From positions 1 through 48,603 of the forward strand of contig JAFVFY010000085.1 of assembly GCA_017475265.1 (NCBI GenBank): a stretch of DNA of 48,603 bases, read 5' to 3'. The position numbers were made by a program, and so were the translations under genes. Source of the DNA: Prevotella sp. (GTDB lineage: Bacteria; Bacteroidota; Bacteroidia; Bacteroidales; Bacteroidaceae). Below the pieces are notes generated by a model, which did no database searches, had not been told where the DNA came from, and worked only from the letters and a program-made list of their open reading frames with translations. This document shows, one piece after another, positions 18,037-48,424 of this stretch. Position 1 is the first letter of the stretch; the number at the start of each line of letters is the position of its first letter.

Positions 18037-19317
18037 ATGAATTCCATTATTACAAAAGCATTTGTTGTGATGGTTGCAGCCACGATGGCTGCCTGTGGAA
18101 ACTCACGAAATACTCCGGCTAAGAGCGAAGGCAGTACTGCTTCCCAGCAGGTGGGTCCGACGTTCTCTGCCGACTCTGCCTACGCCTTCTGCCAGCGGCA
18201 ATGTGACTTCGGCCCCAGGACGATGAACAGCGAGGCCCATGAGAAGTGCGGACAGTGGATTGCCCAGAAGTTTGCCAGCTATGGCCTTGAAGTTACGGAG
18301 CAAAGGGCCACGCTGAAGGGCTTCGACGGTACTCCCCTACTCTCGAACAACATCATCGCCAGCTACCGCCCTGAACTGAAAGACCGCATCCTTATCTGTG
18401 CCCACTGGGACAGCCGTCCCTGGGCCGACAACGACCCCGACGAGGCCAACTGGACGAAGCCGGTCTTAGCCGCTAACGACGGAGCCAGTGGTGTGGCTGT
18501 GATGCTGGAGCTGGCACGGATTATCACAGGCTGTAGACCTCAGGACGCAGAAGTCGGACTTCAGACCGCAGACCAAAGACCTCAGACTTCAGACCACGGA
18601 CTTCAGACCGCAGACCAAAGACCTCAGACTTCAGACCACGGACTTCAGACTTCAGACCAAAGACCTCAGACTTCAGACCACGGACTTCAGACTTCAGACC
18701 AAAGACCTCAGGACGCAGACCACGGACTTCAGACTTCAGACCACAGACCTCAGGACACAGACCTCGGACTTCAGACTTCAGACCACAGACCTCAGACCTC
18801 CTCCACTCCTTCTACCTCCTCTACTCCTTTACCTCCTATCGGAGTGGACTTCATCTGCTTCGACGCTGAGGATTGGGGAAGCGACAACGTCAGCGACTCC
18901 TGGGCCTTGGGCGCACAGCATTGGGCAGCACATCCCCATCGTGAGGGCTACAGCGCCCGCTATGGCATCCTCCTCGACATGGTGGGAGGCCAGGGGGCAC
19001 GCTTCTACCGTGAAGGCTTCTCGATGTACTACGCCCCGAAGATTGTGGAGAAGGTCTGGCGCGCTGCCGATGACCTTGGCTATGGCTCCATCTTCCTCCA
19101 AAAAGACGGCCACGCCATTACCGACGACCACGGCCCTGTGAACAACGTCGCCGGCATTCCCTGTATCGACATCATCCCCCACTACCCCGACTGCCGCGAG
19201 AGCAGCTTCGGCCCCACGTGGCACACCATCAACGATGACATGGCCCACATCGATGCCAACACGCTTAAGGCCGTCGGCCAAACCCTCGTACAGATCATAT
19301 TTTCTGAAAAGCCCTGA
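18037..19317 (+). CDS. M28-family metallopeptidase lipoprotein with 7-residue repeats
   Basis: A 426-residue lipoprotein with a signal peptide ending TMAAC. It belongs to the M28 zinc-aminopeptidase / glutaminyl cyclase-like group. Metal-site motifs are CAHWDSRPWADND, AANDGASGVAVMLELA and FDAEDWG, plus NVAGIPCIDIIPH near the end. The core is split at about residues 165-255 by a repeat region with a 7-residue period (LQTSDQRPQTSDHG-type units) encoded by 38 DNA heptamers. Relatives have only a short loop there, so the insert probably hangs from the surface. An upstream in-frame ATG exists, but 18,037 gives the proper signal peptide. It may be cotranscribed with lysC. Confidence 0.85.
   Translation: MNSIITKAFVVMVAATMAACGNSRNTPAKSEGSTASQQVGPTFSADSAYAFCQRQCDFGPRTMNSEAHEKCGQWIAQKFASYGLEVTEQRATLKGFDGTPLLSNNIIASYRPELKDRILICAHWDSRPWADNDPDEANWTKPVLAANDGASGVAVMLELARIITGCRPQDAEVGLQTADQRPQTSDHGLQTADQRPQTSDHGLQTSDQRPQTSDHGLQTSDQRPQDADHGLQTSDHRPQDTDLGLQTSDHRPQTSSTPSTSSTPLPPIGVDFICFDAEDWGSDNVSDSWALGAQHWAAHPHREGYSARYGILLDMVGGQGARFYREGFSMYYAPKIVEKVWRAADDLGYGSIFLQKDGHAITDDHGPVNNVAGIPCIDIIPHYPDCRESSFGPTWHTINDDMAHIDANTLKAVGQTLVQIIFSEKP
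18531..18796 (+). repeat. 38-unit 7-bp tandem repeat inside the M28 peptidase gene
   Basis: This 266-bp stretch divides exactly into 38 heptamers, mostly CTTCAGA, CCTCAGA, CCAAAGA, CCACGGA and CCGCAGA, without loss of phase. Higher-order repeats of 21 and 42 bp are visible. Because three heptamers equal seven codons, it is translated as a 7-residue repeat. Confidence 0.93.
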
Positions 19318-19319
19318 GC

Positions 19320-19387
19320 ACCTCAAGCCTCAAATCTTAAACCTCAATTCTCAATCTCAAATATCAAATCTCAAATCTCAAATCAAA
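19320..19387 (+). repeat. 7-bp tandem repeat array before lysC
   Basis: About nine CCTCAAA/TCTCAAT/TCAAATC heptamers fill the gap between the M28 peptidase gene and lysC. Confidence 0.8.
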
Positions 19388-19393
19388 CCAAAT

Positions 19394-20719
19394 ATGAAAG
19401 TAATGAAATTCGGCGGCACCTCCGTAGGTACGCCCCAGCGAATGAAGGACGTGGCCGCTCTGGTCACGAAGTCGGGTCAGCCCGTGTTTTTAGTCCTCTC
19501 GGCCATGAGCGGCACCACCAACTCGCTCGTGGAGATCAGCGACTATCTCTACAAGAAGAACCCCGACGGCGCCCACGAAGTAATCAACATGCTCGAGCGC
19601 AAGTACATGCGCCACGTCAACGAGCTTCTCGAGACTGAGGAGTACCGCAAGCAGACCACCGACTTCCTCAAGGAGGAGTTCAACTACCTGCGCTCGTTCA
19701 CCAAGGAGCTCTTCACCAGCTTTGAGGAGAAGAGCATCGTGGCCCAGGGAGAAATCATGTCGACGAACATGATGGCGAACTACATGAAGGAGCAGGGAAT
19801 CAACGCCGTGCTGCTCAACGCCCTCGACTTCATGCGTACCGACAAGAACGCCGAGCCAGACCCCATCTACATCAAGCAGAAGCTCACGGCCATTCTCGAT
19901 AGCTATGCCGAGTCCGAACCTCAGGTGTTTATCACCCAGGGCTTCATCTGCCGCAATGCCTACGGCGAGGTGGACAACCTGCTGCGTGGCGGTTCCGACT
20001 ACACGGCCTCGCTCATCGGTGCCGCCCTCGGAGCCGAGGAGATTCAGATCTGGACGGACATCGACGGCATGCACAACAACGACCCGCGTATCGTGGAAAA
20101 GACCCAGCCCGTACACCAGCTGCAGTTCGAGGAGGCTGCCGAGCTGGCTTACTTCGGTGCCAAGATTCTGCACCCCACCTGTGTGCAGCCCGCCAAGTAT
20201 GTCGGCATCCCCGTTCGTCTGCTCAACACCATGCAGCCCGACGCCGAGGGAACGACCATCTCTAACGCTACCGAGTATGGCAAAATCAAGGCCGTGGCTG
20301 CCAAGGACAACATCACGGCCATCAAGATCAAGTCCAGCCGCATGCTCCTTGCCACCGGTTTCCTGCGTAAGGTCTTTGAAATCTTCGAGAGCTACCAGAC
20401 GCCCATCGACATGGTCTGCACCTCAGAGGTCGGTGTCTCCATGTCCATCGACAACTCCGCCCATCTTGGCGAAATCATGGACGAGCTGAAGAAGTACGGC
20501 ACGGTTACCGTCGATACCGGCATGTGTATCATCTGCGTTGTCGGCGACCTCGACTGGTCGAACATCGGCTTCGAGACCCGCGTCATGGATGCCATGAAGG
20601 ACGTTCCCGTGCGCATGATCAGCTACGGCGGCTCCAACTACAACATCTCCTTCCTCATCCGCGAGGAGGACAAGCGCCGCGCCCTCCAGAGTCTCAGCGA
20701 CCATCTCTTCAACTCCTAA
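19394..20719 (+). CDS. lysC: Aspartate kinase
   Basis: Phosphorylates aspartate, the first step toward lysine, threonine and methionine. It is 441 residues, like monofunctional class III aspartokinases. The N-terminal signature KVMKFGGTSVG, the kinase core GGSDYTASLIGAALGAEEIQIWTDIDG and two C-terminal ACT domains (from about residue 310: AIKIKSSRM, TVDTGMCIICVVGDL) are all present. A longer in-frame ORF begins inside the preceding gene, so the ATG at 19,394 is chosen. No promoter is visible between it and the M28 gene; only the repeat array lies there. Confidence 0.94.
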   Translation: MKVMKFGGTSVGTPQRMKDVAALVTKSGQPVFLVLSAMSGTTNSLVEISDYLYKKNPDGAHEVINMLERKYMRHVNELLETEEYRKQTTDFLKEEFNYLRSFTKELFTSFEEKSIVAQGEIMSTNMMANYMKEQGINAVLLNALDFMRTDKNAEPDPIYIKQKLTAILDSYAESEPQVFITQGFICRNAYGEVDNLLRGGSDYTASLIGAALGAEEIQIWTDIDGMHNNDPRIVEKTQPVHQLQFEEAAELAYFGAKILHPTCVQPAKYVGIPVRLLNTMQPDAEGTTISNATEYGKIKAVAAKDNITAIKIKSSRMLLATGFLRKVFEIFESYQTPIDMVCTSEVGVSMSIDNSAHLGEIMDELKKYGTVTVDTGMCIICVVGDLDWSNIGFETRVMDAMKDVPVRMISYGGSNYNISFLIREEDKRRALQSLSDHLFNS

Positions 20720-20913
20720 GGAACTGACACTAAATAAAGTTACAATTGGAAACGATGTTTTTAGTAAAACAGATAAACAACAAAAACAGATAAAAACCAT
20801 TCGTATTGTTTTTCTCAGTATTTCTTGTTTTTTCCTGTATTTCTAAAAAACAAAAAGTGAAAACCATTTGACTACTTAATTAAATCACTGTTCCTAAAGA
20901 GTGTCATTGTTCA

Positions 20914-21543: not shown

Positions 21544-21564
21544 AAGGTCTAAAGTCATTGTTCA

Positions 21565-22212: not shown

Positions 22213-22215
22213 GGC

Positions 22216-22240
22216 ATGCCCTCCCATTCAGAGAGGGCAT
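22216..22240. terminator. Hairpin between convergent genes
   Basis: ATGCCCTC pairs with GAGGGCAT around a nine-base loop in the 40-bp gap between the MBL gene and rhaA. It has no T-run, so it may work with Rho or simply protect the 3' ends. Confidence 0.4.
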
Positions 22241-22252
22241 TGGGGGTAAGGC

Positions 22253-23503: not shown

Positions 23504-23549
23504 TTAGTTTGCGATTTGAAGTTTTAGTTTTGAGGTTTAAAAGTTTTCG

Positions 23550-23632: not shown

Positions 23633-24592
23633 TCAGGAACAAATCCTTCGCACGTAAAGACCCTTCAACAGAAGGTAGGCGGCACGCAGCAACGGACGGG
23701 TGGAAGGATGGCACAGAAGGGCGCGGCAAATGCGGAAAAGGGTGTGTGTGGGGTGATAGGGACACCAATGGTAGATGGTGTCTAAGTCGACGATGCCAAG
23801 GGCGCGGTGGATGGTGTTAAGCAGCCCCAGCTCGTAGGCGTAGGTATAGGCATGAGTGGTGTCGTGGTCGCGCAGGAACTCTCCCACTACGCGGCTGGCA
23901 CTAAGATAGGAGCCGATGTGACGCTCGTTAAGCCAGGAAGCAAATGTTCCGCTGGGGTTTACTCGATATTGGTAAACCACATCTTTAATATAAGTACGGG
24001 TGGCGAAGAACAGCAGCCGGGGCATGATGCAATAGTCCTCGGCCATGTTGATGCCGTGGATGAAGTCTACGTGGTTGTCGGTGTGGAGGCTTCTGCGGAT
24101 GAGCCGTGCCCATACCTGGTGGGTGAGCGTGTTCTGTGCCAGCAAGAGGCGCATCATGGTTTCCTTCGTGCCTTCGAACGGGGTGGTGGTCTCCCCTAGC
24201 CTACCATCGGGTAACAGTCGGCAGTAAGCCCCATCGACAATGTCTGCCCCCGTCGCCTCCTGCGCCTTGACAAGTTTCTCCACGGCATCGGGCATGAGCA
24301 AATCATCGCTGTCGGCATACATCACGAAGTCGCCCGTGGCAGCAGCAAGGGCAATGGAGCGGGTGGCTCCTGAACCCTGGTTCTCGCTGTTGTGGATGAT
24401 GTGTACCTGGGGCTTGCGCTCAGGATAGCGGGAGAGGACTTCCTCGAGCACGGCAACGCTGGCATCAGGGGAGCAGTCGTCGACAAAGATATACTCCAAC
24501 TCAGGGTAGGTCTGGCTGAACAGCGAGTCGGCACAGGCTCCGATAAAACGCTCAACACCGTAAACGGGGACTATAACCGAAACTTTATACAT
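23633..24592 (-). CDS. Family 2 glycosyltransferase
   Basis: A 319-residue GT-A fold transferase of the GT2 type. It begins YKVSVIVPVYGVERFIGAC, has VDDCSPD near 37-43, and the sugar-nucleotide-binding acidic motif YADSDDLLM near 92-100. The in-frame ORF upstream runs through the flippase gene and its heptamer repeats, so the start is set at MYKVS, 22 bp inside the flippase 3' end. It is the last gene of the AAA+/FHA/PP2C operon. It is likely to add a sugar to a cell-surface polysaccharide at the inner membrane; donor and acceptor are unknown. Confidence 0.88.
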   Translation of the reverse strand: MYKVSVIVPVYGVERFIGACADSLFSQTYPELEYIFVDDCSPDASVAVLEEVLSRYPERKPQVHIIHNSENQGSGATRSIALAAATGDFVMYADSDDLLMPDAVEKLVKAQEATGADIVDGAYCRLLPDGRLGETTTPFEGTKETMMRLLLAQNTLTHQVWARLIRRSLHTDNHVDFIHGINMAEDYCIMPRLLFFATRTYIKDVVYQYRVNPSGTFASWLNERHIGSYLSASRVVGEFLRDHDTTHAYTYAYELGLLNTIHRALGIVDLDTIYHWCPYHPTHTLFRICRALLCHPSTRPLLRAAYLLLKGLYVRRICS

Positions 24593-26115
24593 TCTTCTAG
24601 GGTTTTGGAACGAAGGAGTTTCATCAGGCCGACGTAGAGTGCTGCGGCTATGAGGATGCGGGAAAGCAAGAGAGTTAAGAGTTGAGAGTTGAGAGATGAG
24701 AGATGAGAGTTGAGAGATGAGAGTTGTACGGTGAGGAAGTAGGTGGTGGCCATCACGAGGAGTGCTACGATGAAGAAGGGCATGGTGTCCTTCAGGGCTG
24801 AGAGAAGGGGGAAGGGAGTGACGCGACGCAGGGCGAAGTGCCAGCAGAGGGTGAACAGAACGTTCAAGGCTGAGAAGGCTGCCACCATGACCATGATGCC
24901 AAAGGAAGAGAGGGAAAGGGTGACGACTATCTGGAGGACTATCATCAGGGCGATGCAACGAAGGTAAATATCACTACGTCCACAGGAGATGATAAAGTTC
25001 TGATACAGCGTGTGTAACGGCATGAAAGCTCCACCGATACATAACATCTGGAGAAGGGGCACACAGGGGAGCCAGCGGTCAGTAATGGTGAGCACGATGA
25101 ACTCACGGGCCACCAAGGCAAGACCTAACATGAGGGGAAAGACGACGAAGGAGGTGAAGCGGAGCATCTTGCGGAAAACACGCTGTTGACGCTGGAGAGG
25201 GCTCTCGACATTGTCCTGGGCTGGCTCGGAACCTGTACGGGCTGGCACAGTCTCTGTACGGGCTGGCACGGCCTCTGCCCCTACGGAAGCTTGTGTCAGG
25301 ACGGGCTGAGCCACCTGCTGCATGGTGTTGCTGATGAAGGAGCTGCCCATGGTGTTCCACTTGTTGGCCTGGTTGAACTGTCCGACGACACCTATGGGGA
25401 ACAGTTTACCGAAGATGAAGGTCAGCACATGCTGGCTGGTGACGGTAAGCATGTTGGTGAGCAGGAGCTTCGAGGAGAAACGGAACATGCTGCGGATGGG
25501 GCTCATGTCGATGGGCAGGAGTGGTCGCCAGCGGGTGAAGCACCATTTGATGATACTGCTCAGGGAGATGAACAACAGCTGCTGCCACGCCAGGCTCCAG
25601 TAGCCATAGCCGTGATAGGCCAGCCAGATGCCCACACAGCCCGACAAAGCCAAGGAAAGAATGGCAGCAATGGCCAGTTCACGGTTGCGCAGCTCTATCC
25701 ACAGTTTCGCGTTAGGCACAATACCCAAGGCCGAGACGGGGATGCAGAGGAACGTCAGACGGGCAACGTTGGTGAGCTCTGGCAAATCGAAAAAGGCGGC
25801 GATGAGCGGGGCTGCTATATATAATAAGATGTACATGGAGAAGCCCGCCAGCGTGTTGAACCAAAAGACGGCACTATAGTCGCGCAACGTGGGCGGCTTC
25901 AGATTGGCCAGCGCCTGGGAGAACCCCGCTGCCTGAATACAGCCGGCGAGGGTGGTGAAGATGGTAAGCAGGGCGAGGATGCCGTAGTCGCTTTCCGAAA
26001 GGCGGCGTGCCAGCACAATGCCAAACACAAGGTTGAGCAACTGCACCGTGCCGTTGTTCACCGCTCCCCATGCTATGCCTTTGGCGGTTTTCTCCTTCAG
26101 GGTCTCTTTACTCAC
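24571..26115 (-). CDS. Polysaccharide flippase (Wzx/MATE-like)
   Basis: A 514-residue polytopic membrane protein of the polysaccharide-exporter (Wzx-like, MOP) superfamily, with the typical start GIAWGAVNNGTVQLLNLVFGIVLARRL and about 12-14 hydrophobic helices. It probably flips lipid-linked oligosaccharide across the inner membrane. The start is a GTG overlapping the upstream stop (GTGA). Two repeat-encoded insertions are present: a 7-residue repeat VPARTET/VPARTGS in a loop near residues 277-300, and SSLNSHLSSLNSQLLTL near the C-terminus, encoded by 7-bp units. Its 3' end overlaps the glycosyltransferase gene. Confidence 0.88.
   Translation of the reverse strand: MSKETLKEKTAKGIAWGAVNNGTVQLLNLVFGIVLARRLSESDYGILALLTIFTTLAGCIQAAGFSQALANLKPPTLRDYSAVFWFNTLAGFSMYILLYIAAPLIAAFFDLPELTNVARLTFLCIPVSALGIVPNAKLWIELRNRELAIAAILSLALSGCVGIWLAYHGYGYWSLAWQQLLFISLSSIIKWCFTRWRPLLPIDMSPIRSMFRFSSKLLLTNMLTVTSQHVLTFIFGKLFPIGVVGQFNQANKWNTMGSSFISNTMQQVAQPVLTQASVGAEAVPARTETVPARTGSEPAQDNVESPLQRQQRVFRKMLRFTSFVVFPLMLGLALVAREFIVLTITDRWLPCVPLLQMLCIGGAFMPLHTLYQNFIISCGRSDIYLRCIALMIVLQIVVTLSLSSFGIMVMVAAFSALNVLFTLCWHFALRRVTPFPLLSALKDTMPFFIVALLVMATTYFLTVQLSSLNSHLSSLNSQLLTLLLSRILIAAALYVGLMKLLRSKTLEECIKFRL
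24669..24726 (-). repeat. 7-bp tandem repeats within the flippase gene
   Basis: About eight heptamers of the GAGAGTT/GAGAGAT type. They encode the Ser/Leu/Asn-rich loop SSLNSHLSSLNSQ between the last helices of the flippase. Confidence 0.85.
25215..25284 (-). repeat. 21-bp (3 x 7) tandem repeat within the flippase gene
   Basis: Two nearly identical 21-bp units (25,233-25,253 and 25,254-25,274) share ctgtacgggctggcac and are flanked by partial copies. They encode VPARTET and VPARTGS in a predicted loop. Confidence 0.75.
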
Positions 26116-26550: not shown

Positions 26551-26620
26551 CTGTTTTGAGATTTGAGATTTGAGGGTTGAGGGTTGAGATTTGAGGGTTG
26601 AGATTTGAGGGTTGAGATTT
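26551..26620 (-). repeat. 7-bp tandem repeat array upstream of the small membrane protein
   Basis: About ten heptamers (GAGATTT, GAGGGTT) fill the gap between the PP2C gene and the small membrane protein gene and reach the PP2C stop codon. Confidence 0.85.
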
Positions 26621-27396: not shown

Positions 27397-27963
27397 TTAG
27401 CAGATACTTACCTTTAGTGGAACGTTGGCCAGGGAGAGGATGTCTCCGTTCTTGAGCGACATCTCAACGTCGGGCTGCAACTGATGGTCGTTAAGGCGAG
27501 TGCCGTTGGAGGAATGTTTGTCTGCAATGCTCCACCCCGTGGCATGGGCGTACTTCAGCTGAGCGTGGGCTCCCGAGATGTAGCCCTGCCCTTGGAGCAT
27601 CTGGGAGTATGGTCCCTGACGACGACCGATGATGGCACCGTTGATGCCCGTTATACGTATGCCCAGCGAATCGTTGAAGAGCAACAGCTGGGGTGTCGCG
27701 GCGTTGCGGTGGCGGGGAGCTGAGGGGTTGGACTTGGTGTTGGAAACCTGCGAGACGAAACCCGTGGAGACGGAGTCGTCAACCTGATACTCAGACACTT
27801 CCGACTTCTCGCCAGGAACCGACATAAGCCCTCCGCAAGAGGTGCAACGACGGCCTATGCCTACACGGCCACAACGTTCACAATAAAGCAGTTTCTGGCC
27901 ACACTGGTCGCAATAGTACGACTGCTCATCAATCTCTTCTTTACAGTTAGGACAGACTATCAT
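27397..27963 (-). CDS. Double zinc-ribbon FHA-domain protein
   Basis: A 188-residue phosphothreonine-reader protein. The N-terminus has two zinc ribbons (CPNC and CDQC, then CERC and CTSC, within residues 4-43). A flexible, Ser/Asn-rich linker follows. The FHA domain at about 95-188 keeps the key pattern IIGRRQG, ISGAHAQL (Ser-x-x-His) and SSNGTRLN. It should bind a phosphothreonine peptide and recruit a partner. The next gene encodes a PP2C phosphatase, and the preceding one a four-module AAA+ ATPase with a similar N-terminal zinc ribbon. Confidence 0.92.
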   Translation of the reverse strand: MIVCPNCKEEIDEQSYYCDQCGQKLLYCERCGRVGIGRRCTSCGGLMSVPGEKSEVSEYQVDDSVSTGFVSQVSNTKSNPSAPRHRNAATPQLLLFNDSLGIRITGINGAIIGRRQGPYSQMLQGQGYISGAHAQLKYAHATGWSIADKHSSNGTRLNDHQLQPDVEMSLKNGDILSLANVPLKVSIC

Positions 27964-27965: not shown

Positions 27966-28002
27966 TTATTTACGATTTACGGATTTACAATTTACGATTT
28001 GT
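27966..28002 (-). repeat. 7-bp tandem repeats between the AAA+ and FHA genes
   Basis: TTTACGA, TTTACGG and ATTTACA heptamers in the 61-bp gap match those near ssrA and aspS. Confidence 0.75.
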
Positions 28003-34837: not shown

Positions 34838-34866
34838 TCTTATAACGTCTACAGCACCCTCCTAAA

Positions 34867-34915
34867 GTCTAAGGTCTGAAGTCTAAGGTCTGAAGTCTAA
34901 GGTCTGAAGTCTACA
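34867..34915 (+). repeat. 7-bp tandem repeat array (GTCTAAG/GTCTGAA)
   Basis: Seven heptamers alternate GTCTAAG and GTCTGAA just after the 59-residue gene, ending in GTCTACA. The rest of the 34,838-35,252 gap has a CCCCGC/GCGGGG hairpin near 34,938-34,974, the terminator at 34,996 and the promoter at 35,205. Confidence 0.9.
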
Positions 34916-34995
34916 GTCGAGGGTACCGTGGTCGTATCCCCGCACCCCTGCCGAGGGCAAATTGCGGCGGGGTGTAATAAGTAAAGTTTTTTAAG

Positions 34996-35252: not shown

Positions 35253-37715
35253 ATGAAAAGAATCCTAGCATTAGTATACATGGCTGCTGCGGTGGTGGCT
35301 GGCAATGCACAAGACAAACTGTATGCCGATGAGTTCCCCCTCGGCGATGTCACGTTATTGGATGGGCCGCTGAAGAAAGCCCGTGACCTGAACATACAGA
35401 CGCTGCTGAAGTATGACTGTGACCGGCTGCTGGCTCCTTACCGCAAGGAGGCAGGACTGGAACCGAGGGCCAAGACCTATCCCAACTGGGACGGGCTGGA
35501 CGGACACGTGGGAGGGCACTATCTGACGGCAATGGCCATCAATGCTGCCACGGGCAATGAGGAGTGCCGCCAGCGTATGGAGTACATGATTGGCGAGCTG
35601 CAGCTCTGTGCCGATGCCAATGCAAAGAACCACCCTGAGTGGGGCAAGGGCTATGTGGGTGGTATGCCCAATAGTGAGCGTATCTGGAGCACTTTCAAGA
35701 AGGGTGACTTCAGGGTATACTTCGGTTCGTGGGCTCCGTTCTATAATCTTCATAAGATGTACGCGGGCCTGCGCGATGCTTGGCTCTACTGTGGTAACGA
35801 ACAGGCAAAGACGCTCTTCCTGGGTTTCTGTGACTGGGCCATCGACCTGACGGCTGGTCTTAGTGATGCGCAGATGGAGCAGATGCTGGGCAACGAGCAC
35901 GGCGGCATGAACGAGGTGCTGGCCGATGGCTACGCCATCACGGGTGACCGGAAATACCTCGACGTGGCCAAGCGCTTCTCTCACCGTAGGCTGCTCACCC
36001 CGATGTCTCAGCGTGTGGACAACCTGGACAATATGCACGCCAACACACAGGTGCCCAAGGTGGTGGGCTTTGAGCGTATCAGCGAACTGAGTGGCGACGA
36101 GAGCTATCACCATGCAGCCGATTTCTTCTGGGACATAGTGACGGGTGAACGGTCACTCGCCTTTGGTGGCAACTCACGCCGTGAGCACTTCCCCAGCAAA
36201 GAGGCCTGCATGGACTTCATCAACGACATTGACGGACCGGAGACCTGCAACACCAACAATATGCTGAAGCTGACGGAGGACATGCATCGCCGTAATCCTG
36301 AGGCCCGCTATGCCGACTATTACGAGCTGGCAACCTTCAACCACATCCTCTCCTCGCAGCATCCTGAGCATGGAGGATATGTGTACTTCACCCCCGCCCG
36401 TCCGCGTCACTACCGCAACTACTCTGCGCCTAACGAGGCCATGTGGTGCTGCGTGGGCACAGGCATGGAGAATCACGGCAAGTACGGACAGTTCATCTAC
36501 ACCCATGTGGGCGATGCCCTTTACGTGAACCTCTTCGTCAGCTCGGAACTGAACTGGAAGGAAAAGGGCGTCACACTCCGTCAGGAGACTGCCTTCCCCT
36601 ACGGCGAGAGCAGCCGCATCACCATCGCCAATGGCAAGGGACAATTCCCCCTGCTGGTGCGTTACCCAGGGTGGGTGACACCCGGACAGTTTGAGGTAAA
36701 GGTCAACGGCCAGAAGGTCAGCATCATCACCGGCCCGTCGAGCTACGTCACCATCGACCGTAACTGGAAGAAGGGCGACGTCGTCGAAGTGTCGTTCCCC
36801 ATGCACAACAGCATCAAGTATCTGCCCAACGAGCCGCAATACATCGCCTTGATGCACGGCCCCATCCTGCTTGGCATGAAGACGGGTACGGAGGACTTGG
36901 CTCACCTCGTGGCCGATGACAGTCGCTTCGGACAGTATGCCAGCGGCAAGAAGCTGCCCATCAACGAGGCTCCCATCCTGATTAACAACAACATCGAAGA
37001 CATTGCCAAACAGCTGACGCCCATCCCAGGCCAGCCACTCCATTTCACCTTTGGATTTGAGAATGGAGATTTGAGAATTGAGAATTTAAATTACCTCCAA
37101 GACACGCAGACAAACCTCAAATCTCAAACCTCAAATCTCAACCCTCAACCCTCAAATCTCAAATCACAGATTGAATTACGGCCCTTCTTCGAGATTCACG
37201 ACGCTCGCTACATGATGTACTGGCTCGCCCTCTCGGAGGACAGCTATAAGGATTATCTCGACGGTCTGGTAAAGGCAGAGCGGGAACGTCAGGAACTGGA
37301 GGCCCGCACCATCGACAAGGTGCAGCCGGGTGAGCAACAGCCTGAGACCGACCACAACATGGAGACCGACCGCTCGAATACAGGCAACACTAATGATGTG
37401 TTCTGGCGTGACGCCCGCGATGGCCATTACTTCAGCTATTTGATGCAGACCGATGGCCGTACAGACCTACAGCTGCGCCTGAAGTTTTGGGGCGTGGGAG
37501 AGTGGAAGACCCATGAGTTTGACATCTTCATCGACGACCAGCTGCTGACCAGCGTCAACAACACAGGCAAGTATCGCATCTCCGAGTTCAAGTACGAGAC
37601 CTTTGACATCCCCGCCGAAATGCTTCAGGACAAGACTCAGGTGCGTGTGAAGTTCGTGGCAAAGCCTGGTAAGCAGGTTGGCGAAATCTATGGCGTGAGA
37701 CTTGTAAAACCATGA
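35253..37715 (+). CDS. GH127 beta-L-arabinofuranosidase
   Basis: An 820-residue exported enzyme of glycoside hydrolase family 127 (formerly DUF1680), which releases beta-linked L-arabinofuranose from plant or extensin-type glycans. A signal peptide (to NAQ, residue about 20) precedes the (alpha/alpha)6 catalytic domain. The zinc/nucleophile set is visible: E330 and C332 in PETCNTNN, and C399-C400 in MWCCVGTG. Beta-rich C-terminal domains follow. Near residues 602-637 there is an insertion encoded by 7-bp repeats (NLKSQTSNLNPQPSNLKSQ). It has its own promoter and no transporter or SusCD neighbours. Periplasmic or surface location is inferred. Confidence 0.93.
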   Translation: MKRILALVYMAAAVVAGNAQDKLYADEFPLGDVTLLDGPLKKARDLNIQTLLKYDCDRLLAPYRKEAGLEPRAKTYPNWDGLDGHVGGHYLTAMAINAATGNEECRQRMEYMIGELQLCADANAKNHPEWGKGYVGGMPNSERIWSTFKKGDFRVYFGSWAPFYNLHKMYAGLRDAWLYCGNEQAKTLFLGFCDWAIDLTAGLSDAQMEQMLGNEHGGMNEVLADGYAITGDRKYLDVAKRFSHRRLLTPMSQRVDNLDNMHANTQVPKVVGFERISELSGDESYHHAADFFWDIVTGERSLAFGGNSRREHFPSKEACMDFINDIDGPETCNTNNMLKLTEDMHRRNPEARYADYYELATFNHILSSQHPEHGGYVYFTPARPRHYRNYSAPNEAMWCCVGTGMENHGKYGQFIYTHVGDALYVNLFVSSELNWKEKGVTLRQETAFPYGESSRITIANGKGQFPLLVRYPGWVTPGQFEVKVNGQKVSIITGPSSYVTIDRNWKKGDVVEVSFPMHNSIKYLPNEPQYIALMHGPILLGMKTGTEDLAHLVADDSRFGQYASGKKLPINEAPILINNNIEDIAKQLTPIPGQPLHFTFGFENGDLRIENLNYLQDTQTNLKSQTSNLNPQPSNLKSQIELRPFFEIHDARYMMYWLALSEDSYKDYLDGLVKAERERQELEARTIDKVQPGEQQPETDHNMETDRSNTGNTNDVFWRDARDGHYFSYLMQTDGRTDLQLRLKFWGVGEWKTHEFDIFIDDQLLTSVNNTGKYRISEFKYETFDIPAEMLQDKTQVRVKFVAKPGKQVGEIYGVRLVKP
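37053..37166 (+). repeat. 7-bp tandem repeats in opposite orientations inside GH127
   Basis: GATTTGAGA-type heptamers (37,053-37,090) are followed after a short gap by CTCAAATCTC/CTCAACC heptamers (about 37,113-37,166). The two halves are largely complementary and can form a hairpin in the mRNA. They encode an Asn/Ser/Leu-rich insertion. Confidence 0.85.
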
Positions 37716-38323: not shown

Positions 38324-38444
38324 AACAACGGATTAAAACTGATTTCACGGATTTCACGGATTTTTTCTCCCTAACGAATCTGGAAGAAATCTGTGAAATC
38401 AATTATAATCCGTAAAATCCGTGTAATCCGTAAAATCCGTTGTT
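38324..38444. repeat. 121-bp inverted repeat built from 9-bp units
   Basis: The arms begin AACAACGGATT and end AATCCGTTGTT, and are filled with 9-bp units (ATTTCACGG on one side, GTAAAATCC and GTGTAATCC on the other). It lies between the convergent cdd and PL1 genes and may act as a two-way terminator or a palindromic repeat. Confidence 0.8.
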
Positions 38445-40369: not shown

Positions 40370-40397
40370 TAGCCCTAATTCTTTGCTAACGAGAATC

Positions 40398-41624
40398 ATG
40401 AACTATCTCTCCCCCTTTGCCCGACCGCTCTACGTCATGACCAAGCCTGTTGGCAGTCTCTGTAACCTGGCCTGCAAATATTGTTACTATCTGGAGAAAG
40501 CCCGACTCTACGACCACCTGCCACAGAGGGAGCGGTTCAACATGAGTGACCGTACACTAGAGGAGTTCATCCGTCAGTATCTGGAGGCACAGACACAACC
40601 GCAAGTGCTCTTTACCTGGCATGGTGGCGAGCCGCTGCTGCGCCCGCTGAACTTCTATAAACGTGCGCTGGCCCTACAGAAACAGTATGCACGAGGACGA
40701 CAGATAGACAACTGTCTGCAGACCAATGGCACGCTGCTCACCGAAGAGTGGTGCGAGTTCTTTCGTGAGAACAACTGGCTGATAGGTATCTCCATCGACG
40801 GCCCGCAGGAATTCCACGACGAGTACCGGCGCAGTAGGCAAATGCAAAGCCCGGAAGCTTCAAACACTACTGGTCAGCCTTCGTTCCACAAAGTGATGCG
40901 CGGCATACGTCTGTTGCAGAAGCATGGCGTGGAGTGGAACGCTATGGGAGTGGTCAATGACTTCAACGCCGACTACCCCCTCGAAGTCTATCATTTCTAC
41001 AAGGAGATAGGCTGTCAGTACATACAGTTCGCCCCTATCGTGGAGACCTCAGATTATCAGAATCGAATGAGGATTGCTCCCTTCTCCGTCAGTCCTAAGC
41101 AGTACGCCCACTTCTGCTGCACCATCTTCGACGAATGGGTGCGCCACGACGTGGGACAGGTCTTCGTACAGCTGTTCGACTCCACGCTGGCATGCTGGGC
41201 GGGCGAGACACCAGGTGTGTGCACTATGTGCGAGACCTGTGGTCATGTCTCAGTCATTGAAGCAAACGGCGATGTCTACTCGTGCGACCATTTCGTGTAT
41301 CCCGACTATCTGCTGGGAAACATCCATCGCGACACCATCACCTCAATGATGTACAGTTCACGGCAAATTCAGTTCGGCCAGGCCAAGCGCGATGCCCTAC
41401 CCCACCAGTGTCTCGACTGTCAATGGCTCTTCGCCTGTAACGGCGGCTGTCCCAAGGACCGCTTCTGCCAGACAGCCGATGGTGAGCCCGGTCTGAACTA
41501 CCTGTGCCCGGCTTTCCAGCAGTTCTTCGCTCACGTAGCTCCCTATATGGACTTCATGAAAAACGAACTGCTTTGCGGCCAGGCACCTGCCAACGTCATG
41601 CAATGGAATCCTCTTACTCCGTAG
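40398..41624 (+). CDS. Anaerobic sulfatase-maturating enzyme-like radical SAM protein
   Basis: A 408-residue radical SAM protein. The cluster motif CNLACKYC has C22, C26 and C29. A SPASM-type C-terminus binds two further clusters ([32 protein letters not shown]). The pattern fits anSME, which oxidises the active-site Cys or Ser of sulfatases to formylglycine. No sulfatase is in the window, so it probably matures sulfatases encoded elsewhere. The ATG at 40,398 is chosen over an upstream TTG. Its 3' end overlaps the convergent aspS by 11 bp. Confidence 0.9.
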
Positions 41625-43377
41625 GTTTCAGCTCAACCTTCAGCTGAAGCTCTTCAAGCTGCTTCGGGTCAAGCTCACCTGGAGCGTCGAGCATCACGTC
41701 ACGCCCTGAGTTGTTCTTCGGGAAGGCGATGCAGTCGCGGATGCTGTCGAGACCAGCCATGAGGCTGACGAAGCGGTCGAGACCGAAGGCGAGACCACCG
41801 TGAGGAGGTGCTCCGTACTTAAAGGCGTTGATGAGGAAGCCGAACTGCGCCATAGCCCGTTCGGGCGTGAAGCCGAGAATCTCGAACATCTTCTCCTGCA
41901 GCTTGCCGTCGTGGATACGCAGAGAGCCACCGCCCACCTCTACACCGTTGCACACGAAGTCGTAGGCCACGGCACGAACCTTGGCGGGGTCGGTATCGAG
42001 CAGGGGAATATCGTCGGGATTGGGAAGGGTGAACGGATGGTGAGTGGCCATGAGGCGCTGTTCCTCGTCGCTCCACTCGAAGAGGGGGAAGTCGACAATC
42101 CATAGGCAGACGAACTTGTCCTTGTCGCGCAGACCGAGACGGTCGCCCATCTCCAGACGAAGGGTGCAGAGCTGGATGCGTGTCTTGTTGGCGTTGTCGC
42201 CACTGAGGATAAGCACGAGGTCGCCGTCCTTGGCGCCGCAAGCCTCCTTGACCTTCTGCCAGACCTCGGGAGCGTAGAACTTGTCGATGCTGGACTTCAC
42301 GGTGCCGTCGGCGTTGAACTTCACGTAGACGAGCCCTTTGGCGCCCACCTGCGGACGCTTCACGAAGTCGGTCAGCTGGTCGAGCTGCTTGCGGGTGTAG
42401 TCGGCGCAGCCGGGGCAGCAGATGCCGCCGATGTACTGTGCGTCGTTGAACACGGGGAAGGTGCCGGTGCCCTTCAGCTGGTCCATCAGCTCGACAAACT
42501 CCATGCCGAAGCGCAGGTCGGGCTTGTCGGAGCCGAAGCGGCGCATGGCCTCATGCCACGTCATGCGCTGCAGCGGGGGAAGCTCTACGCCGCGCACCTC
42601 CTTGAACAGGTGGCGGGCAAGGCTCTCAAAGACTTCGAGGATATCCTCCTGCTCGACGAACGACATCTCACAGTCTATCTGCGTGAACTCCGGCTGGCGG
42701 TCGGCACGCAGGTCCTCGTCGCGGAAGCACTTCGCAATCTGGAAGTAACGGTCGAAGCCGGAGACCATCAGGAGCTGCTTCAACGTCTGGGGCGACTGCG
42801 GCAGGGCATAGAACTGTCCGGGGTTCATACGGCTGGGAACCACGAAGTCACGGGCACCCTCGGGCGTGGAGCCGATAAGGATAGGCGTCTCCACCTCGAT
42901 GAACTGGCGGCTGTCGAGGAAGTTACGGATGAGGATGGTCATGCGGTGGCGCAGCTCCAGGTTTTTTCTGACGGCCTGACGGCGCAGGTCGAGGTAACGG
43001 TACTTCATGCGCAACTCGTCACCACCGTCGGTATTGTCCTCGATGGTGAAGGGCGGCGTGATGCTCTCGCTGAGAATGTTCAGTCCCGAGACGAGAATCT
43101 CAATGTCGCCCGTAGGCATCTTCGGGTTCTTCGACTCACGTTCGCTGACGGTTCCCGTAGCCTGGATGCACCATTCGCGTCCCAGCTTGTTGGCCTTCTC
43201 ACAAAGGGCGGCGTCCTTCGACTCGTCGAACACTAACTGTGTAATACCATAGCGGTCGCGCAGGTCTACGAAGGTCATGCCTCCCATCTTACGCGTGCGC
43301 TGTACCCATCCGGCAAGCGTCACCTGCTGGCCGGCATCGGCGAGACGAAGCTCGCCACAAGTCTTGCTTCTATACAT
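41614..43377 (-). CDS. aspS: Aspartyl-tRNA synthetase
   Basis: Charges tRNA-Asp (class II). It is 587 residues, the bacterial type with an insertion domain. An N-terminal OB-fold ([22 protein letters not shown]) is followed by motif 2 ([23 protein letters not shown]), the GAD-type insertion, and motif 3 ([16 protein letters not shown]). The 3' end overlaps the radical SAM gene. Its promoter at 43,452 is separated from the ATG by TTTACGA heptamers. Confidence 0.96.
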
Positions 43378-43378
43378 C

Positions 43379-43448
43379 TTTATATTTACGATTTACGAAT
43401 TTGCGATTTACGATTTGTTACCGTGATAATTACGATTTACGAATTTGG
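43379..43448 (-). repeat. 7-bp-period repeats in the aspS leader
   Basis: ATTTACGA, ATTTGCGA and TTTACGAATTT words at about 7-bp spacing lie between the aspS promoter and its ATG, like those near ssrA and 27,966. Confidence 0.7.
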
Positions 43449-43451
43449 CCG

Positions 43452-43459
43452 CAAAGGTA
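43452..43459 (-). promoter_or_regulatory. Promoter -7 box for aspS
   Basis: The minus strand reads TACCTTTG, about 75 bp upstream of the ATG. Confidence 0.7.
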
Positions 43460-43515
43460 CTACAAAAACGGCGAACTGCCAAACAATTCGCCGTTATTTC
43501 ACTTTTATTTATCCA

Positions 43516-45009: not shown

Positions 45010-45045
45010 AATCGTTCGATATTATTGTTTAATATTACTCGCTTT

Positions 45046-45133
45046 GAGAATAAGCCGTTCTTTCTATGAGAATAAGCCGTTCTTTCTATGAGAGAAAGCC
45101 GTTCTTTCTCTGGGAAAAAGCCGTTCTTTCTCT
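45046..45133. repeat. 22-bp module array (four units)
   Basis: Four units of exactly 22 bp start at 45,046, 45,068, 45,090 and 45,112. All contain aagccgttctttct. Units 1 and 2 are identical; 3 and 4 differ at the edges. A near-identical unit sits at 8786, over 36 kb away. Confidence 0.93.
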
Positions 45134-45161
45134 GAGAGGGCGGAGACTATCGAGATTCCCT

Positions 45162-45686
45162 TTATTCAGCATTGTCTTGGGCCGAGTGCATTTCTATTTC
45201 CACATAGCCGTGGCCATTACCTTTTAATGATACAAAGCCATCATAACTGTAACCGTTATTGCTGCATCTGAGATACATCTTGTCGCCATGTGAAATACTG
45301 TCACTTCCTAAAGTGAACCATACAAAATGATAAGGTTCGTCTAATGGAGTTTCATAACAATCCGAATAGTAAGGTTCAAAAATGACGTTTAGAGAGTCCA
45401 GCCCTTCTTTCGTCTTTGACAAGTTTCTGATTGTGTTTATATATGCGGGGCGACCTTTAAATAATAAATCATAAAAACACATCTCTATATCTACTCTTCC
45501 TCCACCAGCATAAATAACCATAAATGGACCGTCTAAAGATTTATTCCATTTATTTGCATAGGTTTCTTGGCCTTCTGTAGGATGATCATGTCCTTTAATA
45601 TTCACATACTCCTCATCTGACGAACAGGCACCCCATAATCCCGATATTAGAATAAAGGGGAAAAAGTAAAGAACTATTCTATTCAT
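45162..45686 (-). CDS. Small lipoprotein of unknown function
   Basis: A 174-residue predicted lipoprotein. The start MNRIVLYFFPF is chosen because it gives a signal peptide ending LWGAC. Directly after the Cys comes SSDEEYVNI, strikingly like HVNDEEYVDL in the divergent lipoprotein at 45,839. The rest is beta-rich and not recognised. Base composition is AT-rich compared with most neighbours, hinting at recent arrival. Confidence 0.7.
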   Translation of the reverse strand: MNRIVLYFFPFILISGLWGACSSDEEYVNIKGHDHPTEGQETYANKWNKSLDGPFMVIYAGGGRVDIEMCFYDLLFKGRPAYINTIRNLSKTKEGLDSLNVIFEPYYSDCYETPLDEPYHFVWFTLGSDSISHGDKMYLRCSNNGYSYDGFVSLKGNGHGYVEIEMHSAQDNAE

Positions 45687-45838
45687 AATTTTTTGTTGTT
45701 TTGTCAATCTAACGAAGAGGGGACGGAAATCCTGCAGTATGAAAGCGTAAAAAATGTTAATTGCGGGTGCCGCAAAAAAAGTTGTCTTCGATGTGCAAGA
45801 TTTTCGTTTTTTCCCGTTTAATAGAAAAAAACACAGGT

Positions 45839-46468
45839 ATGAATAAGAAGATTATGAAAATGTTACTACCGTCATTGCTGGTTTGCATGATAAGTATGAT
45901 GGTGGGCTGCCACGTCAATGATGAAGAATACGTTGATTTAAGACCACGTATAGCTGATGATTCTGAGATTATCTATAACTTCGATGGCGAATGGTCGGTA
46001 AACCGTCAGGTGGTGGACACGGCACGCATGGAGTTAAGAGAAAATGGAAAGATAGAAGTCCGTCTGCCGGAGCATTATCTGCTCAGTCTGTGCTTTCCTG
46101 ATAAAACAGACATGGCTATAGAAACGAGTAACTCAGCGAGTTTAATAGAAGTACATGAGCAAGGTTATAGTGAAACGTCGCAATATATGTCCATAGGTTC
46201 TGATATGACACAGACCAATGAAGCAGAAACATTCTTCATCAATAGCTCATTTATGGCGGCCATTGACCGCACACCCTATTCTATCCAACTGCTGTCGAGA
46301 GAGTATGCTACGGCCGTTATACAGAACACAACGGGACAATGGACGTTGAGCATTCCCATTGACGGTTTCCTTCTCACGAATCTTTTCCTTTCGAGCCGTG
46401 AAACGGAGTTGGTGGAACTGCCCCAGACTGTCACCATCTATTATAATACAAAGAGAAGGATAGAATAA
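45839..46468 (+). CDS. Small lipoprotein of unknown function
   Basis: A 209-residue predicted lipoprotein. The start MNKKIMKMLLPSLLV gives a signal peptide ending MMVGC, followed by HVNDEEYVDL. An in-frame start 78 bp upstream lacks a signal peptide. The rest is not recognised. It is AT-rich like its divergent neighbour. The ECF sigma gene starts only 9 bp downstream, so the two may be cotranscribed. A TTGCGG/CCGCAA hairpin (45,761-45,775) lies in the divergent gap. Confidence 0.7.
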   Translation: MNKKIMKMLLPSLLVCMISMMVGCHVNDEEYVDLRPRIADDSEIIYNFDGEWSVNRQVVDTARMELRENGKIEVRLPEHYLLSLCFPDKTDMAIETSNSASLIEVHEQGYSETSQYMSIGSDMTQTNEAETFFINSSFMAAIDRTPYSIQLLSREYATAVIQNTTGQWTLSIPIDGFLLTNLFLSSRETELVELPQTVTIYYNTKRRIE

Positions 46469-46477
46469 GTCAGGCTG

Positions 46478-47035
46478 GTGGAAACTGAGAAGCAACTGCT
46501 GGAAGCGATACGCAGCGGCGAGCGTGCTGCCATGCGACGGCTCTACGACCGCTACTCAGGCTATGCCATGGCCGTGGGGCTGAGGTATGTGCCCGAGCAC
46601 GACGATGTGCGCGACGTGCTGCAGGACAGCTTCGTGAAGATTCTCACCAACATTGGCCAGTTTGAATATCGCGGCGAGGGGTCGCTGAAGGCATGGGTGA
46701 GCAGGATTGTCAGCAACTTGGCCATCGACCACCTCAAGGCAAACAGCCGATTCTTGCTCACAGACAATAGTTGGAGGGGATTTGATGCCCTCGACGACGA
46801 GGACGAGGAACCCGACATCGGAGACCTGCCACCTGACGTGCTGACGGAGATGATTGGCCGGCTGCCGACAAACTACCGAACGGTGCTTAACCTCTTCGTC
46901 TTCGAGCAACGGCCTCACAAGGAGATAGCCCGGCTGTTGGGCATCAAGGAGAACACGTCGTCGTCCATCTTCTTCAGGGCGAAACGGATGCTGGCAAAAA
47001 TGATTACAGAATACCAAAACAAGCAAAGAACATGA
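46478..47035 (+). CDS. ECF-type sigma-70 factor
   Basis: A 185-residue extracytoplasmic-function sigma factor. Region 2 is seen at RDVLQDSFVKIL and KAWVSRIVSNLAIDHL, and region 4 at RTVLNLFVFEQRPHKEIAR then LLGIKENTSSSIFFRAKRML. The start is a GTG that gives ETEKQLLEAIRSGERAAM. Its stop overlaps the ATG of the next gene (ATGA), which encodes a membrane anti-sigma-like protein, so the pair is very likely a sigma/anti-sigma unit sensing the envelope. Confidence 0.93.
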   Translation: METEKQLLEAIRSGERAAMRRLYDRYSGYAMAVGLRYVPEHDDVRDVLQDSFVKILTNIGQFEYRGEGSLKAWVSRIVSNLAIDHLKANSRFLLTDNSWRGFDALDDEDEEPDIGDLPPDVLTEMIGRLPTNYRTVLNLFVFEQRPHKEIARLLGIKENTSSSIFFRAKRMLAKMITEYQNKQRT

Positions 47036-48363
47036 AACCGGACAAGTTGACACAACAGCTGCACGACAAGCTGGCGGACTACCAGACGCCAGCTCCCGAC
47101 GGTCTGTGGGATGACCTCGAGGCCGCCCTCGCCGGTGTAGGGGAAGAGACCACGCCAGCCCAAAGTGGCCGTACTCGTTTCGTGGCTTTGCGGAGGTGGG
47201 CGACAGCGGCAGCAATAGCAGCTCTCGTCTGCGGCGGTGGTATGATATGGTGGGGACAGGAGAGTCAAAAGATGGAGTCGCTGGTAAGTATGGCAGAAGA
47301 AGACTGTATTAATAATTTAGAAGAACAGGACGAAGAGACTCATATAGATGTTGAAGAACAGAACGAAGAAACTCCCCTACCCTCCGAGAACGAAGTTCAG
47401 AGCGCAGCCATTCCCCTCCCATGTAGGGGAGGGGCCAGGGGTGGGGTCAGTAACTCCAACACCTGCATCGCTGAGACAATACCTCTAAAAGAAGAGACCC
47501 AAACCCCACCCCTTGAGGGGAGGGGAATGGATGTGTCGGAGGAGCCTCAGACTACCCAGCCAAAATCGGAGGAGCCTCAGACTACCCAGCCGAAGTCGGA
47601 GGAGCCTCAGGTAATTCCTTCTCAGCCTGAGTCTCCCACAAAGGTATACCGTCCTCATCGTGTGAAGCACACCAACCGTAACCTGTCCCTTTCTCTCTAC
47701 GCCATGAACGGTTTGGGCACAAAGGACAATAGTAATGGCGTGATGATGGCCGATGCCCTGGCAGAGAAATATGCCAACACGATGGCCAACGCCTACACCT
47801 CCAGACGCCAGTCTCCCATCTTCTTGACAGGCTACGAAGAAAGGGAACACCACCGCCAGCCCGTCTCTTTCGGACTATCAGTAAGCTATCCGTTCACCCA
47901 GCGGCTGTCACTCACATCGGGCATCGTCTATACGAAGATGCGGTCGGACTTCGAACAAATCATCCGCACCCAGCAAATCAACAAGGAGCAGACGCTCCAC
48001 TACGTCGGCATACCCCTCGGCCTGAACTATCGTCTGTGGCAGCTAGGAGCGCGGTCATCCTCGTCCGCAAAGAAGCATGGTGTTTTCACAGCCTACGTCT
48101 CCACCGGCTTCCAGGCAGACTGGAATGTTGACGCACGACAGAACACCGAGGGCGTGGAGAGCCATCTGGACAAAGATAAGATGCAATGGTCGGTAAACGC
48201 CAGCCTCGGCTTGCAGTACAACCTCATGCCCCAGCTAGCCCTCTATGCCGAACCGGGCATCAGCCATTACTTCGACAACGGCAGTAACGTTCAGAACTTC
48301 TTTAAGGACAAGCCGACCAGTCTCCGGCTGCAAGTGGGAATACGGATGACCATTGACCATTGA
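47032..48363 (+). CDS. Anti-sigma-like protein fused to an outer-membrane beta-barrel domain
   Basis: A 443-residue protein with an unusual layout. A cytoplasmic N-terminus (residues 1-50: LHDKLADYQTPAPDGLWDDLE) is followed by one membrane helix (about 57-74, AAAIAALVCGGGMIWWG). A long low-complexity linker (about 85-205) includes QTTQPKSEEP repeats. The C-terminal 170 residues are an OMP beta-barrel-like domain (PVSFGLSVSYPFTQRLSLTSG, GLQYNLMPQLALYAEPG). It could span from inner to outer membrane. It is translationally coupled to the ECF sigma gene, so a regulatory role is inferred. The last codons and stop lie inside a 7-bp repeat array. Confidence 0.8.
   Translation: MKPDKLTQQLHDKLADYQTPAPDGLWDDLEAALAGVGEETTPAQSGRTRFVALRRWATAAAIAALVCGGGMIWWGQESQKMESLVSMAEEDCINNLEEQDEETHIDVEEQNEETPLPSENEVQSAAIPLPCRGGARGGVSNSNTCIAETIPLKEETQTPPLEGRGMDVSEEPQTTQPKSEEPQTTQPKSEEPQVIPSQPESPTKVYRPHRVKHTNRNLSLSLYAMNGLGTKDNSNGVMMADALAEKYANTMANAYTSRRQSPIFLTGYEEREHHRQPVSFGLSVSYPFTQRLSLTSGIVYTKMRSDFEQIIRTQQINKEQTLHYVGIPLGLNYRLWQLGARSSSSAKKHGVFTAYVSTGFQADWNVDARQNTEGVESHLDKDKMQWSVNASLGLQYNLMPQLALYAEPGISHYFDNGSNVQNFFKDKPTSLRLQVGIRMTIDH
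47408..47530 (+). repeat. C/G-rich inverted repeat within a coding sequence
   Basis: CCATTCCCCTCCC with GGGGTGGGGT on the left (47,408-47,447) mirrors ACCCCACCCC with GGGGAGGGGAATGG on the right (47,503-47,530). It encodes part of the linker of the anti-sigma/beta-barrel protein. Confidence 0.75.
47536..47610 (+). repeat. 30-bp in-frame tandem repeat
   Basis: Two and a half 30-bp copies encode the repeated SEEPQTTQPK decapeptide in the linker. Confidence 0.9.
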
Positions 48364-48424
48364 ACATTGACCGTTGAACATTGACCATTGAACATTGAAC
48401 ATTGAACATTGACCGCTGAACATT
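48348..48424 (+). repeat. 7-bp tandem repeat array spanning a stop codon
   Basis: Exactly eleven heptamers (GACCATT, GAACATT, GACCGTT) cover 77 bp. The array starts inside the last codons of the beta-barrel gene, whose TGA lies within it, and continues downstream. Confidence 0.92.

Follow-up and report, generated by a model that had tools for sequence, protein, structure and literature searches.

Tandem repeats with a unit of seven bases are familiar from cyanobacteria, whose heptanucleotide tandem repeats are called STRRs. Other very small DNAs are dispersed as single elements. REP and REPIN elements are short, high-copy, extragenic hairpins with GTAG or CGTC tags, moved by RAYT transposases, and the SDR elements of Nostoc, reportedly described by Elhai et al. 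in 2008, are said to be 21-27 nt long, with a covarying structure, often lying within tandem heptamers and nested in one another. Here we analyze heptamer arrays in a 48,603-nucleotide stretch of DNA from Prevotella sp. (contig JAFVFY010000085.1 of assembly GCA_017475265.1), which we call the window, together with a ~30-nt two-hairpin element found in several arrays of the genus. The window is contig C121 of a host assembly of 4.75 Mb in 135 contigs.

Excerpts of PMC4679880 describe heptamer arrays in cyanobacteria, in Beggiatoaceae and in five Bacteroidetes, where TAACTGA heptamers are noted. According to the same excerpts, the Beggiatoaceae repeats are of the one word TAACTGA, lie mostly forward and upstream near start codons, with some in open reading frames (ORFs), and have been proposed to play a regulatory role; indels between two Cyanothece strains are mostly 7-nt steps. 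A passage of PMC10969869 describes the Rickettsia palindromic elements, of ~150 bp, which lie in frame within unrelated protein genes. The arrays studied here resemble STRRs and the heptameric long simple sequence repeats (LSSR) outlined in PMC4679880 in their exact 7-nt period, their many loci and their scattering over species. They differ, as far as those excerpts go, in having many lineage-specific word families, in-frame copies in housekeeping genes, and a fixed core with a few variable bases. They are also like the TAACTGA repeats of those excerpts, with heptamers near start codons and some in ORFs, indels in 7-nt steps (in Cyanothece) and an occurrence in Bacteroidetes, and unlike them in their many words, the lack of orientation in spacers, and the position of more than half of the arrays in genes. 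The Rickettsia elements share with them shortness and in-frame placement in unrelated protein genes, although at ~150 bp they contrast with heptamer arrays and two-hairpin elements of 30-33 nt.

A preliminary description of the window, made from its letters alone, gave no named equivalent in Prevotella. Our literature search returned no description of heptamer arrays in Prevotella (queries joining Prevotella and repeats were few), but such arrays are already known from the bacterial groups named in the excerpts of PMC4679880. The search also returned no publication with the core sequence of the hairpin element. The combination of lineage-specific word families, housekeeping hosts and an embedded hairpin element in a gut Bacteroidota genus appears to be undescribed. 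Our reading, to which we give a probability of about one half, is that the arrays are near-neutral, mobile-like tracts, seeded by templated copying and reshaped by slippage in 7-nt steps; the interpretation offered in the preliminary description is partly supported.

Results

An exact period of seven

Self-match segments with a score of at least 12, our strict test for periodicity, numbered 10 in the window for period 7 and 11, 8 and 8 for periods 14, 21 and 28, and the best periods outside seven and its multiples were 18 and 22, with four segments each. A comparison with randomized sequence had been proposed as a check in the preliminary description; in 20 versions of the window simulated with a first-order Markov model, period-7 segments averaged 0.0. 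Chance is excluded as the source of the period, and the period-7 observation is confirmed, with exact 7-nt tandem units running beyond chance length as in heptanucleotide tandem repeats.

The preliminary description had grouped at least twelve places into a single dispersed class stepping by exactly 7 bp, the words changing under a constant period. The class itself stands. Eleven of the places have a Tandem Repeats Finder (TRF) row with period 7 or a multiple (score at least 40), the one at 953 having none, and nine pass the strict test, which those at 953, 27966 and 43379 fail. The 38 units claimed for ~18535-18800 keep a single register when split into sevens, and the array at 48347-48426, likewise said to lose no phase, has 11.4 copies and no indels in TRF. 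The range assigned to the family, 18531-48424, leaves out the arrays at 953, 7793 and 16784, and the array at 37111-37165 is additional to the twelve places.

Period 7 was also the commonest in 80 related loci kept around metG (1.43 Mb; best-segment identity 78-94%), with 113 segments in 45 of the 80 loci, followed by periods 14 (77 segments), 21 (58), 22 (38) and 8 (26). These MetG-based relatives are mostly rumen Prevotella metagenome-assembled genomes (MAGs); a few, Xylanibacter ruminicola among them, are isolates. In a genus sample unselected for array content (19 stretches, 245 kb), however, period 9 was as common as period 7, with 14 and 13 segments, which means that other short periods exist too. 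Other Bacteroidota, outside the genus, gave three period-7 segments in 20 stretches (325 kb).

Arrays appear as recent insertions, in frame when in genes

The locus with the most similar MetG among the 80 was L001, and its genome, G664, was the nearest fetched. Twenty-two sites of the host genome were compared with it, at a flank identity of 77-96%, leaving out nine sites with no flank pair, one non-adjacent site and sites with short flanks. At gene sites the array was absent from G664 in 12 of 14 cases, the two others carrying another word (L123 16193) or a related one (L123 18205); at spacer sites an array was present there in four of eight, once with a closely related word (L125 16296). Lengths in the host genome minus those in G664, hand-subtracted from the site table with nine gene sites re-aligned base by base, were 30, 234, 24, 42, 84, 45, 12, 24, 27, -6, 54, -48, 54 and 6 at the gene sites and 1, 42, 88, 13, 97, -17, 124 and 7 at the spacer sites. 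All 14 gene-site differences are multiples of three and two are multiples of seven, against one multiple of three among the eight spacer differences. In-frame placement in protein genes, the property of the Rickettsia palindromic elements, was thus found at 14 of 14 array sites.

Individual sites add detail. The insert in metG was compared with the 40 relatives listed first, of which 35 have the short form; L007 has a different heptamer tract, and L010, L021, L022 and L024 have non-heptamer inserts. By eye, the insert lies in a poorly matched stretch flanked by blocks conserved in solved MetRS sequences. In G664 the spacer orthologous to 7790 holds an array of nearly equal length but another word, GAGTTAG, and the spacer at 19318 holds an ATCGAAA-type array. 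Gene site L123 13415 is a 12-bp expansion of a pre-existing run, and no relative was found for sites 24668 and 26547.

Judged by these alignments, the arrays are evidently recent, lineage-specific insertions at the DNA level rather than spaced regulatory sites. They enter spacers and genes alike and, in genes, persist only if they are in frame and nearly stop-free. Of the two causes put forward in the preliminary description, copying or expansion by 7 bp at a time fits. Selection on spacing does not, as length differences in genes follow three and not seven and arrays between co-directional genes lie either way round.

Distribution over spacers, genes and strands

The host genome holds 80 arrays in 448.6 kb, or ~180 per Mb, which extrapolates to ~850 per genome. 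This sample comprises the window and stretches L111-L130, unselected for array position, on contigs drawn from the genome's hit list. Enlarged to 824 kb, it held 185 arrays. Called genes contained 108 of them and co-directional spacers 65; 6 lay between divergent genes, 5 between convergent genes and 1 at an edge. Genes were called with a simple hexamer-based script rather than a standard gene finder, and 20 of the 40 stretches (L131-L150) were picked around CTCAAAT hits, so these fractions lean to the CTCAAAT family. Per base, arrays were ~9x denser in co-directional spacers. The genes that carry arrays include metG, dxs, murF, thrC, a GH127 gene and a flippase gene; metG, dxs and murF are essential in well-studied bacteria.

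Arrays in genes show a strand bias because their sense strand is nearly stop-free, with 0.0275 stop codons per position versus 0.116 on the opposite strand. In co-directional spacers neither strand is clearly preferred: the CTCAAAT family has 12 sense and 5 antisense arrays there, the CTCAACT family 3 and 7. Many spacer arrays end 0-30 nt before the next start codon. The forward placement just upstream of starts that excerpts of PMC4679880 give for TAACTGA was not found here, orientation being mixed and 108 of 185 arrays lying in genes. A role as RNA leader or translational signal had been considered on the strength of the first few window arrays, which were sense CTCAAAT without G, and was rejected because of the mixed spacer orientation in the larger sample and the stop-codon explanation within genes.

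Among 22-kb loci, density ranges from 0 to 54 arrays per 100 kb. Within the host genome, with an average of one array per 5-6 kb, L117-L119 (G000:C32:1-60000) form 60 kb with no period-7 array, perhaps a recent acquisition.

Word families and the TCAA core

The 80 arrays have 37 dominant words, and 115 pairs of arrays share an identical one, compared with a mean of 5.0 and a maximum of 15 in 2000 draws of a null whose words came from spacers only. Pairs within one genome that differ by at most one mismatch numbered 44 (permuted mean 22.4, maximum 37, 300 permutations). Words therefore form families common to many loci of one genome, and similarity within genomes exceeds that between genomes; array sequences of the host genome also match many non-orthologous places in G664. 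TAACTGA was the dominant word in none of these 80 arrays or of 117 arrays of relatives.

TCAA occurs in the dominant word of 41 of the 80 arrays and 26 of the 117 in relatives, and in 6% of random circular 7-mers. Such words include TCAAATC, TCAACTC, TCAATTC, TCAACCC, TCAATGG and TCAATGT; words of other types include AGAC+NNN, GTCT+NNN and ATCGTAA. Arrays had 2.67 variable columns versus 3.80 expected (86 arrays), and the last unit of TCAANNN arrays was complete in 38 of 79 and in 14 of 30 cases (15% and 19% expected). The sequence CTCAAATCTCAAATC is present in 68 of 299 genus genomes, with 103 copies in the host genome. A few other genomes have many copies of its backward control word (23 in G200 and 27 in G035), which indicates that those genomes use other words.

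Other short families are dispersed in the same DNA. The 12-bp family AAAGGGGAGTGA lies at ~17 places in the host-genome sample, along with further short families, and a 47-bp element at L111 9728-9774 has dozens of matches in G665, several of them as inverted pairs ~30-100 bp apart.

A two-hairpin element embedded in arrays

Several arrays contain the common core sequence of a ~30-nt two-hairpin element. The core has 32 copies in the host genome at up to two mismatches (0 for its backward control) and occurs in 88 of 397 genus genomes, the host included; a search of 197 genomes from elsewhere in the phylum, made with a slightly different pattern, found no copy. The layout is 5'-CGCT, hairpin 1, and hairpin 2 with a terminal G; in 53 of 57 copies the next two bases are AA. 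The length is 30 nt in 39 of the 57 and 39 nt, with a longer loop, in 12; these copies were retained only if the second stem was perfect, with at least 4 pairs. A scan of 2.70 Mb for this architecture gave 50 matches; the reversed control gave 3, and 0.32 Mb from other families gave 1. Because the scan accepted only perfect second hairpins, and first hairpins with no more than one mismatch, pair counts lean to structure; the match counts include loci fetched for holding the core, and two matches without the CGCTC start (L141 and L139) may be due to chance. Elements of 30-33 nt were found in L163, L168, L215, L233, L012, L204 and others. The same scan found no match in the window, and Rfam returned two tRNAs only on five element-bearing loci.

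The stems appear to change in a compensated way. Among 20 distinct elements, six cells of hairpin 1 changed on both sides, which none of 500 shuffles matched, and 86% of cells were paired, with slid controls pairing at 13-51%. These rows had been preselected to have no more than one mismatch in that stem, however, and pair types were not more numerous than in shuffles (153/500). Second stems differ among copies; when the first 17 nt were searched without selection, most copies retained the second stem at a fixed offset. With the element removed, 28 of 57 copies regained the 7-bp register, versus 10.8 for random partners. Candidate empty sites were seen twice, each 30 nt shorter: L221 compared with L213 (flanks 95/93%, AA retained) and L230 compared with L196 (flanks 72/74%, junction bases different). 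No target-site duplication was found at these two sites, and the difference equals the element length, 30 nt. Of the 48 matches with CGCTC, length was divisible by three in 31 of 32 in called genes and in 10 of 16 elsewhere, and among 27 distinct elements 19 have all six frames open. Copies are nested in L215, and three stand in tandem in L163.

The element is thus a dispersed repeat of <100 nt with an apparently covarying structure, often embedded in tandem heptamers. Compared by description with the Nostoc SDR elements, it is likewise tiny, dispersed, paired with covariation, heptamer-embedded and nested; unlike them it is 30-33 nt long (or 39), belongs to another phylum, lies 5' of AA and is mostly in frame. 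With REP and REPIN elements it shares short hairpins and a high copy number, but it has a CGCT 5' end and AA beyond its 3' end and is tolerated in genes.

The CTCAAAT word is abundant in genomes that lack the main element type (G201, G229, G177, G180 and G049). This rules out the element as a necessary cause of arrays, with other element types unsearched in those genomes, and makes it a guest of arrays rather than their cause. The element also interrupts the short dispersed sequence GTTCAGACCCCCAACCCCCTAACTTAGGGGG in L116, L140, L166, L167, L169, L173 and L177.

Features of the window

The arrays and host genes of the window are collected in Table 1.

Table 1. Heptamer arrays of the window and the genes that carry them
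Feature	Position	Strand	Remarks
Weak degenerate ATTTACG-type run, ~4 copies, 8-bp step	954..992		Seen by eye, no TRF row; adjoins tmRNA gene
CTCAAAT/CTCAACC array	7787..7861	+	Fills spacer of two genes; GAGTTAG array here in G664
AATGTTC/AATGGTC array	16782..16815	+	In-frame metG insert, +30 bp vs relatives
AGAC+NNN array, 38 units	18535..18800	+	In-frame insert in peptidase M28 gene, +234 bp vs G664
CTCAAAT array	19320..19384	+	Spacer 5' to aspartokinase-like gene; ATCGAAA-type run in G664
CTCTCAA/CTCTCAT array	24670..24735	-	Within 3' part of polysaccharide flippase gene
CTCAAAT/CTCAACC array	26555..26620	-	Fills spacer of two genes
CGTAAAT run, one slip	27968..28000	-	Just upstream of gene 27397-27963; TRF row, fails strict test
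GTCTAAG/GTCTGAA array	34862..34918	+	Long spacer
TTTGAGA-type array (CTCAAAT family, minus strand)	37050..37086	-	Within GH127 gene
CTCAAAT/CTCAACC array	37111..37165	+	Inverted partner of 37050..37086 array, within GH127 gene
CGTAAAT run, one slip	43384..43416	-	Upstream of gene 41614-43377; TRF row, fails strict test
TGACCAT/TGAACAT array	48347..48426	+	Spans stop codon of gene with outer-membrane beta-barrel domain
metG (methionyl-tRNA synthetase), array host	15824..17920	+	
Peptidase M28 gene, host of 38-unit array	18037..19317	+	
Polysaccharide flippase (Wzx-like), array host	24571..26115	-	
GH127 beta-L-arabinofuranosidase, host of inverted array pair	35253..37715	+	

Inverted pairs of the CTCAAAT family occur at window 37050-37165, L125 9869-9943 and L142 10382-10459, all sharing GAGAATGGAGATTTGAGA; those of the window and L125 lie within called genes. 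Other repeats of the window include period-9 repeats of the GATTTCACG / AATCCGTG type at 38341-38440, dispersed elsewhere in the genome, and period-22 tandem repeats at 11959-12049 and 45045-45137; in the 80 related loci only periods 7, 14 and 21 are stronger than 22. A large gene at 12502-15543 combines BspA-type leucine-rich repeats with dockerin and clostripain-family domains. Rfam found nothing but tmRNA in the window.

Discussion

Templated copying combined with slippage would work as follows. A new array would start at a nick or break, where a short stretch is copied from an existing array as template, from the DNA or its RNA, with the constant bases of the unit acting as a re-annealing point. 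The arrays would then lengthen and shorten through slippage in 7-nt steps, and selection would filter the insertions. Permissive sites may also take other very small elements, above all the two-hairpin element, which would enter 5' of AA, a step that occurs within each TCAA unit.

Several observations weigh against this account. About half of the words of the host genome have no TCAA, and the contiguity of variable columns is barely above chance (3.84 vs 3.61); moreover, slippage alone also yields fixed columns if one variant duplicates. Replacement of words is not universal, since related words are shared with G664 at a spacer (L125 16296) and a gene (L123 18205). No responsible enzyme was identified. 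Finally, unit order common to loci was not above shuffles (62 runs), and there is thus no sign that whole ordered arrays are copied; whole-array copying, to which an apparent shared order in three window arrays had pointed, was rejected on that result.

The last point is equally what plain replication slippage would predict. Under this explanation a polymerase footprint of ~7 nt favours heptamer duplication anywhere, each locus has an independent origin, and words drift; an excerpt of PMC4679880 credits the footprint idea, meant for prokaryotes in general, to Mrazek et al. 2007. It accounts for an exact period across many words, and the 12-bp expansion at L123 13415 is of this kind. We nevertheless regard it as possible but rather unlikely as the whole explanation, given the few words that recur at many unlinked loci (115 pairs vs 5), the fixed 3' end phase of arrays, and the differences in words and density between congeners. 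That end phase, with the constant core and variable end, would instead suit a reverse transcriptase (RT) that writes arrays from a short RNA template, in a telomerase-like or target-primed manner, and moves the hairpin element by the same route; the AA 3' of the element in 53 of 57 copies, and its retention in L221 compared with L213, are as expected for a TT primer end. This proposal is improbable, as no template RNA was found, CTCAAAT is abundant in the genomes named above without the main hairpin type, and a PF00078 search of the host genome gave, on translations read by eye, two RTs of the group II intron type and one diversity-type RT only. The latter lies in L183 (G000:C32), near a gene that by eye resembles a target of a diversity-generating retroelement. 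A telomerase-like or defence-type RT was set aside on the same search, which divergent enzymes may escape, and a Y1 transposase as mover was set aside after three matches with nothing to tie them to arrays or element. The wider idea that the genus runs an active writing system, in which the same templated copying makes both the hairpin element and the TCAANNN tracts and lengthens housekeeping proteins in frame, we hold to be speculative and rather unlikely.

Two further explanations carry little weight. If arrays were regulatory leaders by start codons, serving translation or as binding sites in the manner of the Beggiatoaceae TAACTGA repeats, the spacer arrays that end close to a start codon would be expected, and excerpts of PMC4679880 offer a parallel. 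Short spacers make that closeness expected in any case, however, and the many arrays inside genes, the mixed orientation in spacers, and orthologous spacers that often have no array or another word make a leader function very unlikely. An assembly artefact of metagenome bins might be suspected in a genome of 135 contigs whose named relatives are mostly MAGs, the more so as the few named isolates among the 80 loci are array-free in their 22-kb stretch (L029, L031, L039 and L061). But the arrays stand in intact frames with length changes in multiples of three, and another genome has such arrays on a contig of 1.37 Mb (L207); this explanation is hardly credible.

Why unrelated bacteria share exactly seven bases is an open question taken from Mrazek et al. 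through an excerpt of PMC4679880. It is testable in Prevotella, where close species differ in words, density and positions and where recent insertions have identifiable empty sites. The arrays would be usable as strain markers. The hairpin element would rank among the smallest mobile DNAs, and it invites a search for its enzyme; if a shared writing system were true, the pairing of heptamer and SDR element in cyanobacteria would represent either convergence or transfer. Array tracts add peptide repeats to housekeeping enzymes and may be a source of protein novelty.

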